Below, one piece after another: positions 30,501 to 32,939 of a stretch of DNA of 32,939 nt (position 1 is its first letter; the number at the start of each line of letters is the position of its first letter). The stretch spans positions 1-32,939 of the forward strand of contig CAJANN010000242.1 in the NCBI GenBank assembly GCA_903941095.1, read 5' to 3'. The position numbers and the translations under genes were made by a program. Source of the DNA: an uncultured Rhodospirillaceae bacterium (GTDB lineage Bacteria > Pseudomonadota > Alphaproteobacteria > Rhodospirillales > Magnetospirillaceae). The notes beneath the pieces were generated by a model. That model did not search any database, had not been told where the DNA came from, and saw only the letters and a list, made by a program, of their open reading frames with translations.

Positions 30501-31133
30501 TCAGAGTGGGCGGTTCGGGTCCGGATCGCGCAGCATGACCAGGGTCGGCGTGGCCGACAGGGCATTTTCGATCCGCCAGATATAGACCTTGTACAGTCCG
30601 AAGGGGCGAACCTCGGTCGCGTTATGGCGCAACACGTTGGCATCGGTGGTGATGCGGAATTCGCCCTCCATGCCGATCCCCAACTCGGCCATGCGCTGTG
30701 CATCCGACGCCTTTACCCCGTTCGCATCAATGATGATGGTTCCATCTTCGTTGGACTTCAGGGAAATCAGCCGGGCATCGCGCCGCAACAGCGACGTCAG
30801 TTGCACCTTGCCCAGGCGCCCACCACGCTCGTAGCGCAGATGAAAGCGTCCCTTGCCAGTTCGCTTCAGGTCTTTTACGGCGATGTCGCGGACAAGGTCC
30901 TTGTAGATGTTATTGTGCCGTTCCGCCTCGTTCTCGGGCGTGATCTTGCCGTTTGCATATTCGTGCATGATCGGGGCATAGATCACGTCTCCTTCATATG
31001 TAAGCGCCCAATCGCCATATTTTGACAGCCGGAGCTCGCCGCGAAATTTGTCCGGAATATAGCACGACGACACCAGGACGGTGAGGGCGACAACCGACAG
31101 AATGCGGGCCGTACTGTCGATAATCCGCCTCAT
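30501..31133 (-). CDS. Putative lipoprotein of unknown function
   Basis: This 210-residue protein starts MRRIIDSTARILSVVALTVL and has a lipobox-like LVSSC with Cys24, so it is probably a lipid-anchored exported protein. The mature part is mixed alpha/beta, with a central 'GKGRFHLRYERGGRLGKVQL' stretch and no domain I recognise. ATG 31133 is chosen because it gives the signal peptide and overlaps the mazG TGA (ATGA); the frame continues to 31178 only inside mazG. Coupling to mazG suggests co-expression, but nothing shows a functional link. Confidence 0.7.
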   Translation of the reverse strand: MRRIIDSTARILSVVALTVLVSSCYIPDKFRGELRLSKYGDWALTYEGDVIYAPIMHEYANGKITPENEAERHNNIYKDLVRDIAVKDLKRTGKGRFHLRYERGGRLGKVQLTSLLRRDARLISLKSNEDGTIIIDANGVKASDAQRMAELGIGMEGEFRITTDANVLRHNATEVRPFGLYKVYIWRIENALSATPTLVMLRDPDPNRPL

Positions 31134-31930
31134 TTTTCGCGATCCTCCGCTTTTTCCAACCTTTTGGCCCGCAGCCACAGCGCCTCCATTTCATCAAGGG
31201 AAGCCTGATCAAGGCGCCGCCCGCTTTGTCGCAACTGCCCCTCAACGTCGCGAAAGCGCCGGTCGAACTTGGCGTTGGCGCGCTTTAGACAGCGGTCCGG
31301 GTCGATTGTGAGCTTCCGGGCAAGGTTGACGCAAGCAAAGAGAAGATCCCCCATTTCGTCCTCAAGCCGGTCCGGGCCGCCATCGTTTTCAATTTCATAT
31401 TTTATTTCAGATAGTTCCTCGTCGATCTTCTCAATGACTTCGAAGGCTCCGGGCCAGTCGAAGCCCACTCGGGCTGCGCGAGCCTGCAGCTTGAGCGCCC
31501 GGGTCAGCGGGGGCAACGTGCCAGCCACTCCGTCGAGAATACTGTCATTTCCCTTGCTGGCCCGCTCCTCTGCCTTGGTGGCTTCCCAGGCGTGGATTTG
31601 AGCGGGAACGTCACGAGCGGCTTCCTCGGCGAAGACGTGCGGGTGGCGGCGGACCATCTTGTGACAGATAGCCTCGGCAACATCACTGAAGTCGAAACAT
31701 CCGGCCTCATCCGCGAGCTGAGCATGAAACACCACCTGAAACAGCAGGTCCCCCAGTTCTTCCCTTAAGGCGACCATGTCGTTTTGATCGATGGCGTCGG
31801 CCACCTCGTAAGCCTCTTCAACGGTATAAGGCGAAATCGTCGAAAAAGTCTGCTCACGGTCCCAGGGACAGCCTCCTTCCGGAGACCGCAACGTCTTCAT
31901 GATCGCAATCAATCGATTGATAGGGGGCAT
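31130..31930 (-). CDS. mazG: Nucleoside triphosphate pyrophosphohydrolase MazG
   Basis: This protein of about 266 residues has two MazG domains. The first has GGCPWDREQTF, TVEEAYEVADAI and EELGDLLFQVVFHA; the second has EELSEIKYEI and EDEMGDLLFACVNLARK, each carrying the EExxE...ExxD metal-binding pattern. MazG hydrolyses NTPs to NMP and pyrophosphate and clears abnormal nucleotides. ATG 31930 (MPPINRLIAIMKTL) fits the usual N terminus of the family; ATG 31963 is an alternative 11 codons upstream, and neither has a strong ribosome binding site. It is divergent from the phosphoribulokinase gene and coupled to the lipoprotein gene downstream. Confidence 0.93.
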   Translation of the reverse strand: MPPINRLIAIMKTLRSPEGGCPWDREQTFSTISPYTVEEAYEVADAIDQNDMVALREELGDLLFQVVFHAQLADEAGCFDFSDVAEAICHKMVRRHPHVFAEEAARDVPAQIHAWEATKAEERASKGNDSILDGVAGTLPPLTRALKLQARAARVGFDWPGAFEVIEKIDEELSEIKYEIENDGGPDRLEDEMGDLLFACVNLARKLTIDPDRCLKRANAKFDRRFRDVEGQLRQSGRRLDQASLDEMEALWLRAKRLEKAEDREK

Positions 31931-32113
31931 GCTCGGCTTACCGGCCAGTGGAGGGACGGCCATTATACGCCAGCGGTTCCCACCCGTCTGCGTAGAGATT
32001 TCCCTCTCCACATGCGTTGCACATCCACCCCCGCCGGGTGAAGCCGGTGACACCGAAGTTCATGTAGGATTTTTGGGATGTTGGTCCGCAAGAGGCCAGA
32101 AAGGGAGGCAGAT

Positions 32114-32939
32114 ATGTCCATCAGGCATCCCATTATCGCCGTCACCGGCGCTTCGGGGGCCGGTCGCGAGTCGGTTCGTGCCGTATTCGACCGCTTGTTC
32201 CGACGAGAGGGAATTACCGCGGCCTATGTCGCCGGTGAAAGTTTCCATCGCTATGACCGCGCTCAATTCAAGGCCGCCGAAGCAGAGGCGACGGAAAACG
32301 GAAATCCACATTTCAGCCATTTCGGCCCGGACGCCAACCTGTTCGACGAGCAGCAGCAGCTGTATGCCAGCTATGCCCGATCGGGCACCGGGCGCAGACG
32401 CCACTATCTGCACAATGATGAAGACGGCAAGCGTTTGGGCTATCCCGACAGTAAGGCTGGGGAATTCACTCCGTGGGAAGATCTGCCGGCCCAATCGGAC
32501 CTGTTGTTATATGAAGGCCTGCATGGTGTGGTCCGCGGCCCCGGGTTTGACCTTGGACGAGAGGTCGACCTGAAGATCGGCATGGTGCCAATCGTCAATC
32601 TTGAATGGATTCAGAAGGTTCACCGCGACACCGGCCGGCGAGGGTACTCACGCGAAGCAGTGATGAGCCGCATCCTGCATCGTATGCATGATTACACCCG
32701 ATTCATCCTGCCCCAATTTCAGCACTCGGATATCAACTTCCAGCATGTTCCTGTGGTGGACACGTCGGAACCTTTCATCGCCAGAGACATTCCTGCCGTC
32801 GATGAAAGAGTGGTGGTGATCCGTTTCCGGAAGCCAGAGGAGCTTGATGTCGATTTTCCGCTGCTTGTCGGCAAGATCAAAGGGGCGTGGATGACCCGGC
32901 GCAACACCCTGGTCGTTCACGGGGGAATGCGTGACTTGG
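32114..32939 (+). CDS. prk: Phosphoribulokinase, class I (bacterial), 3' end outside window
   Basis: The first 275 codons of an approximately 290-residue phosphoribulokinase are present; the end is cut off. Conserved lines are PIIAVTGASGAG, SHFGPDANLFDE, LLYEGLHG, VDLKIGMVPIVNLEWIQKVH followed by RD, SDINFQHVPVVDTS, and VVVIRFRKP. The Calvin-cycle enzyme phosphorylates ribulose 5-phosphate to ribulose 1,5-bisphosphate. By alignment with my memory of Rhodobacter PrkA, the substrate residues His45, Arg49, His100, Lys168 and Asp172 are kept, but the P-loop reads GASGAGRES in place of GSSGAGTST and Asp42 is Glu. GGGAGG lies 7 bases before the ATG. It is divergent from mazG across a gap of about 180 bases without a clear promoter match. 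Confidence 0.88.
   Translation, partial: MSIRHPIIAVTGASGAGRESVRAVFDRLFRREGITAAYVAGESFHRYDRAQFKAAEAEATENGNPHFSHFGPDANLFDEQQQLYASYARSGTGRRRHYLHNDEDGKRLGYPDSKAGEFTPWEDLPAQSDLLLYEGLHGVVRGPGFDLGREVDLKIGMVPIVNLEWIQKVHRDTGRRGYSREAVMSRILHRMHDYTRFILPQFQHSDINFQHVPVVDTSEPFIARDIPAVDERVVVIRFRKPEELDVDFPLLVGKIKGAWMTRRNTLVVHGGMRDL

Follow-up and report, generated by a model that had tools for sequence, protein, structure and literature searches.

A divergent phosphoribulokinase gene at the end of the contig

The window, by which we mean the whole 32,939-nucleotide stretch of DNA that was analysed, ends within a gene for a divergent phosphoribulokinase (PRK), referred to here as PRK2 (Table 1). Translation from the ATG at 32114 gives MSIRHPIIAVTGASGAGRESVRAVF...VAGESFHRYDR..., and the C-terminus is missing because the contig (C242) stops at position 32939. 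There is an alternative in-frame ATG at 32078; the start at 32114 is the one that aligns with residue 1 of the Rhodobacter sphaeroides PRK (PDB 1a7j). The translation scores 381 bits against the NCBIfam model NF011997 (curated cut-off 362), which places it in the phosphoribulokinase sequence family. It also matches PF00485 (184 bits) and 1a7j (E value 6.8e-87).

Table 1 Features of the window around the PRK2 gene
Feature	Position	Strand	Basis or remark
Divergent class I phosphoribulokinase paralog (PRK2)	32114..32938	+	275 codons present; NF011997, PF00485, 1a7j alignment, tree
Altered P-loop GASGAGRES, residues 12-20	32147..32173	+	T18R and S19E relative to 1a7j (GSSGAGTST)
Codon 42 (gaa), Glu where 69/69 canonical rows have Asp	32237..32239	+	Alignment to 1a7j
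Purine-rich, ribosome-binding-like stretch aaagggagg	32100..32108	+	5' of the ATG; judged by eye
MazG-type gene, divergently transcribed from PRK2	31133..32053	-	Pfam MazG match on the G002 orthologue only

The original prediction, which numbered residues after the PrkA sequence, had described the P-loop GASGAGRES at codons 12-20, glutamate in place of Asp42 and histidine at the equivalent of Arg186. Alignment to 1a7j reproduces all three and shows that the numbering was right. It also bears out the claim that the changes fall at phosphate- and Mg-binding positions and at the base, residue 42, with the ribulose-phosphate residues retained. At the ribulose-5-phosphate (Ru5P) site the protein has the residues of active enzymes (H45, R49, Y98, H100, K165, D169 and R173). 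It departs from the active-enzyme P-loop pattern G-x-S-G-x-G-T-[ST] and has Glu42 instead of the catalytic base Asp42.

The closest full-length relative found is the orthologue in genome G002 (299 aa). Identity to the window protein is 84% for this sequence, 75% for that of G007 and 70% for that of G021. A sequencing error is very unlikely because all three carry the identical GASGAGRES and Glu42. An artefact or misreading of the window gene was rejected, the exact residues being common to four genomes.

PRK2 is a single clade within the order, usually accompanied by a canonical copy

A second, divergent prk copy had been suspected, and a search of the genome for canonical prk and Rubisco genes proposed. 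The window genome (G000, 95% complete) does encode a canonical PRK on another contig (C50:27587), with GSSGAGTST and Asp42 and 59% identity to the window protein, and a form II Rubisco gene directly precedes it.

We searched 61 relatives, 55 genomes of the family and 297 genomes of the order, the window's own genome being included each time. The order sample contains 113 PRK-bearing genomes, defined as those matching the window protein at E values up to 1e-20; G064, G120 and G274 were left unread and G003 was read in part only. PRK2 is present in 25 of these 113 genomes. Its distribution is patchy, as seen in the family search, where 8 of the 46 matching genomes have it. Of the 25 genomes, 24 also contain a canonical class I prk, complete or in part. 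The exception is G042 (76% complete), where neither a canonical class I prk nor, in a separate test, Rubisco was detected. Form II Rubisco is not associated with PRK2 (20/24 genomes with the paralog versus 35/40, with G042 outside the 24). The same holds for nifH scored over its curated cut-off (9/24 with the paralog versus 28/40).

Sequences without Gly12 or Thr18 were labelled as paralogs. In a 92-row tree, calculated without the frameshifted copy of G026 and the later-found copy of G042, the 23 paralog rows form a single clade (support 100/96). This clade is nested in a group of 74 rows (100/99) together with canonical sequences from that order. Outside the order, in a sampling of 385 genomes of the class that does not amount to a full census, none of 18 PRK-bearing genomes has the altered signature and all 18 have a canonical copy; one further partial PRK fragment (G636) is unreadable at the tested sites. 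Thr18, S/T19 and Asp42 occur together in 80/80 named contig loci, the best 80 of a longer list. A plasmid-borne or recently transferred copy was also considered. This was rejected: the 133 plasmid records that match at E values up to 1e-20 are all below 60% identity, and the tree puts the PRK2 clade with the order's own canonical PRKs.

ATP-side and catalytic residues are lost in varied ways and sugar and effector residues are kept

Eight features (G12, G15, G17, T18, S/T19, D42, E131 and R168) occur in 69/69 canonical rows, and each of the 23 paralogs lacks two to five of them. As G12 and T18 served as the row label, losses there are partly by definition. Recounted without both, one to four of the six remaining features are lost per paralog and none in 69/69 canonical rows. 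The comparison with class I PRKs that the original prediction had called for shows the window protein to differ at positions 18, 19 and 42 from all 69 canonical rows. We take Asp42 of the bacterial enzymes to be the equivalent of the plant catalytic-base Asp57/58, and R31, R234 and R257 to be the effector (NADH/AMP) site of class I PRK.

Retention among the paralogs is lowest for S/T19 (4/23), D42 (5/23) and T18 (6/23), followed by G17 (13/23), G12 and E131 (17/23 each) and R168 (19/23); G15 and S14 are kept in 23/23. H45, R49, Y98, H100, K165, D169, R173, R187, R234 and R257 are likewise present in all 23, and R31 in 21/23. The four-member subclade with GAGRES and Glu42, to which the window protein belongs, is strict at 18, 19 and 42. 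Other PRK2 P-loops read GAGRGS, GAGRGI, GAGRDT, GAGRDI, GANRKT, GANRQT, GVKRDS, GSGRSV, GSGRST, GSGRSS, RPSGAATPM, RPSGAATPV, RPSGALTPV and RSSGVGTTQ. The changes vary from subclade to subclade, with G12R in six sequences and E131 replaced by K, Q or G in six.

Where canonical PRK is conserved to 97% or more, the ATP and catalytic set of positions changed more than the rest (Mann-Whitney, p = 0.004 with the label positions, 0.02 without) and the sugar and effector set changed less (p = 0.004); these p values treat positions as independent, the rows are related, and the kinase, sugar and effector sets are our own choice. Overall, 52 of 100 conserved positions are unchanged in all 23 paralogs. 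The roles assumed for the P-loop Ser/Thr, Lys165 and the lid arginines are drawn in part from PMC9978339 and PMC5241800.

One replacement marks the whole clade. Met249 (1a7j numbering), found in about 97% of canonical PRKs, is Lys, Asn, Glu or Arg in 23/23 paralogs, a possible interface or effector-site change.

Selection and predicted fold

PRK2 is under purifying selection and evolves faster than the canonical enzyme. Based on pairwise Nei-Gojobori estimates, dN/dS is about 0.05-0.37 in 14 paralog pairs, well below 1 in 14/14, compared with about 0.04 to 0.21 in 12 comparable canonical pairs; synonymous sites are near saturation in several of the pairs. Mean identity is 0.59 among paralogs versus 0.73 among canonical-type copies of the same genomes, divergent third copies included. 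The 23 reading frames, from several families, run through the aligned region without interruption; that of the window is cut by the contig end.

An AlphaFold2 model, built with an alignment of 14 canonical relatives, has a pLDDT of 82.7 and informs on the PRK fold only. The fold is predicted to be intact because the first PDB match of the model is 1a7j (TM 0.80, E value 1.7e-30, 49% identity in the structural alignment).

Genomic setting

Twelve of the 25 genomes (G041, G049, G050, G051, G086, G089, G103, G115, G137, G203, G220 and G277) have PRK2 3' of a canonical prk, in the same orientation and 0-43 nt away, and the canonical gene comes first in 12/12. The stop codon of the canonical prk directly abuts the PRK2 start in G115. 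The upstream copy is only partial in the stretches from G103 and G277, and that of G277 was classed as canonical because it resembles the canonical PRK of the window genome (80%). A gene for ribulose-5-phosphate 3-epimerase (rpe), assigned by Pfam on the G060 copy, adjoins PRK2 divergently in four genomes (G042, G060, G097 and G110). Tandem and rpe-linked arrangements together account for 16/25 genomes.

In the eight genomes of the window's family, the fetched stretches show no other prk, no rpe and no Rubisco genes next to PRK2; these stretches extend from a few kb to 33 kb around the copies, and "unlinked" is to be understood within them. The operon argument thus rests on other families. The G044 copy is also located elsewhere, without a common partner gene. 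Neighbours in the window's family include no common functional partner, only short shared stretches: the MazG-type gene with presumed hflX and IMPase genes in G000 and G002, blocks in G007 and G013, and a CBS-domain gene in G072 and G074. The MazG-type gene, common to the window and G002 copies, was not seen in the fetched stretches around the other PRK2 copies compared.

PRK2 as a putative regulatory partner of the canonical enzyme

The window gene is an altered second copy of the phosphoribulokinase gene. Related bacteria retain it along with the normal copy and with its ATP-binding site changed, which suggests that its product assists or controls CO2 fixation as a subunit and is not a second enzyme. 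Because PRK2 matches the family but lacks two active-enzyme motifs, we place it as a putative pseudokinase clade within class I PRK. Judged by sequence and model, it has the features expected of a pseudoenzyme, with conserved catalytic motifs lost and with fold and selection retained.

By our estimate the chances are slightly better than even that PRK2 is a PRK pseudokinase, most likely one that assembles with canonical PRK and tunes its activity as a regulatory, non-catalytic subunit. In this scheme the order's own prk would have been duplicated long ago. The resulting paralog, conserved and under selection, would have lost the catalytic base and the normal binding of MgATP phosphates and retained the fold, the Ru5P pocket and the NADH/AMP effector arginines. 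PRK2 may then join the oligomer of the canonical enzyme, an octamer in R. sphaeroides class I PRK, and would tune it in response to Ru5P/RuBP or NADH/AMP. Catalytic inactivity, hetero-oligomerisation and ligand sensing are what we infer for PRK2. A non-catalytic partner role is favoured because the losses at Mg, phosphate and base positions are varied, the sugar and effector sites are kept, the gene is under selection, a canonical copy co-occurs in 24/25 genomes and the tandems are tight. Several findings count against a regulatory subunit, namely that the distribution is patchy, that the gene is unlinked to prk in the window's family, that neither form II Rubisco nor nifH goes with the paralog, and that no canonical copy was detected in G042.

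The original prediction had offered reduced kinase activity or a regulatory role on the one hand and a different phosphoryl donor on the other. The first is favoured by the selection, co-occurrence and operon data. The second is weakened because P-loops across the clade are altered in several unrelated ways, which resembles loss and not one new chemistry; a different donor may still apply to the four-member GAGRES/Glu42 subclade.

A related alternative, which we consider unlikely, is that PRK2 still works as a kinase, with changed kinetics or a changed phosphoryl donor, in which Arg18 would stand in for the Walker A lysine and Glu42 would act as the base, giving a slow or differently regulated isozyme. 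The replacement of Asp42 by Glu is conservative and Arg18 sits where Walker A motifs have Lys, both of which count against a pseudokinase. A slow or altered kinase is conceivable chiefly for the first of these reasons and from the retention of K165 and D169 in 23/23 and of E131 in 17/23, a retention that would also allow residual activity. R173, S14 and G15 are invariant as well, the GAGRES/Glu42 subclade is strict at its three altered sites, and the window protein scores above the NCBIfam cut-off. However, the Mg-side S/T19 is lost in 19/23, the P-loop changes are not the same from one subclade to another, G12R and the replacement of E131 by K, Q or G each affect six sequences, and none of the eight changes occurs in the 69 canonical rows (at G12 and T18 this follows from the labelling).

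We regard it as distinctly improbable that PRK2 works on its own as a sensor or moonlights in another role, binding Ru5P/RuBP or NADH and acting on some other partner, for example a transcription regulator or Rubisco, instead of PRK. The retained ligand and effector residues and the unlinked position of PRK2 in the window's family are consistent with such a role, and PMC4806589 places R. sphaeroides PRK in a signal path from nitrogenase to cbb repression. This is a precedent for a regulatory PRK, in which the signal component is the canonical enzyme. The tight prk-PRK2 tandems in 12 genomes point instead to PRK itself as the partner, and the copies in the window's family have no consistent neighbour. 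A nitrogenase-to-cbb pathway is unsupported for PRK2 because nifH does not go with the paralog.

Finally, a decaying duplicate without function could account for the patchy distribution, the frameshifted G026 copy and the greater divergence of the paralogs, but it is very improbable given dN/dS well below 1 in every pair, 52 invariant positions of 100 and 23 intact frames across several families.

Comparison with known systems and implications

A Calvin-cycle enzyme family with non-canonical homologues has a counterpart in the Rubisco-like proteins, which have other catalytic roles. They differ from PRK2 in their unrelated fold and in those roles, PRK2 being a protein that lacks ATP-site residues. 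Relative to the R. sphaeroides enzyme (CbbP/PrkA, 1a7j), the window PRK2 is alike in fold, Ru5P-phosphate residues, K165, D169 and R31/R234/R257 and unlike it in T18R, S19E, D42E and R186H. As is proposed here for PRK2, an inactive duplicate stands beside its active partner, possibly in a heteromer, in trypanosomatids, which are unrelated organisms with proteins of other folds. There, according to PMC5201418 and PMC3663545, catalytically dead paralogs (the AdoMetDC prozyme and the DHS paralog) activate AdoMetDC and DHS.

PMC5241800 describes Arg59, Tyr98 and His100 of the Methanospirillum PRK as belonging to a Ru5P-phosphate site and the P-loop main chain with Ser31/Thr32 to the ATP side, and reports both groups of residues as highly conserved in PRKs. 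The same paper describes the R. sphaeroides PRK as an octamer under NADH/AMP allosteric control and counts PRK in a pair of enzymes regarded as specific to the Calvin cycle. In plants the catalytic base is Asp57/58 (PMC9978339). Among the matches listed in the open-access literature there is no description of such a PRK paralog, and the parts of PMC10305379 available do not mention a second prk copy.

PRK makes the substrate of Rubisco and is a control point of the Calvin cycle. If our reading holds, the enzyme that channels carbon into this cycle would have a regulatory subunit not described before, and CO2 fixation would gain protein-level control through a conserved family of PRK pseudokinases, whose genes often directly follow that of the active enzyme. 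The broader proposal, that many bacteria of the order have a two-component PRK made up of active CbbP and a dedicated partner which is dead at the ATP site, has kept its sugar-phosphate and NADH/AMP effector sites and sets the flux into Rubisco, we hold tentatively, at a little below even chances. A pseudokinase family would also mean that counts of "phosphoribulokinase" annotations exceed the number of kinase genes, because even with its altered P-loop and base the window protein scores above the curated threshold of NCBIfam.

Further phosphoribulokinase and Rubisco variants

Several other variants were observed in the same genomes. The PRK2 gene of G026 (L252, G026:C73) is split by a frameshift, from either decay or sequencing error. 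The sole detected class I prk of G009 (L121/L173, G009:C96) has canonical motifs and is split into two frames. One in-frame TAG occurs in the form II Rubisco gene at G021:C221:1192-2574. A second PRK near the form II Rubisco gene of G010 (L120, G010:C14) groups with a Thauera sequence outside the PRK2 clade and is a probable horizontal acquisition. A third class I PRK in G060 (L127:8912-9829) and G097 (L167:5554-6627) forms a long branch outside the PRK2 clade. These sequences have a canonical P-loop and Asp42 together with R234H, R257G and R221T, and are possibly PRKs without NADH/AMP control.

Form II Rubisco normally has no small subunit. In G051, a form II-like gene for the large subunit (71% against the CbbM of the window genome) precedes the prk-PRK2 tandem, and form I large subunit gave no match in this genome (63% complete). 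Directly after the tandem, a 109-aa ORF on the plus strand (L116:5677-6003) matches the RuBisCO small subunit (Pfam, 3.5e-18).
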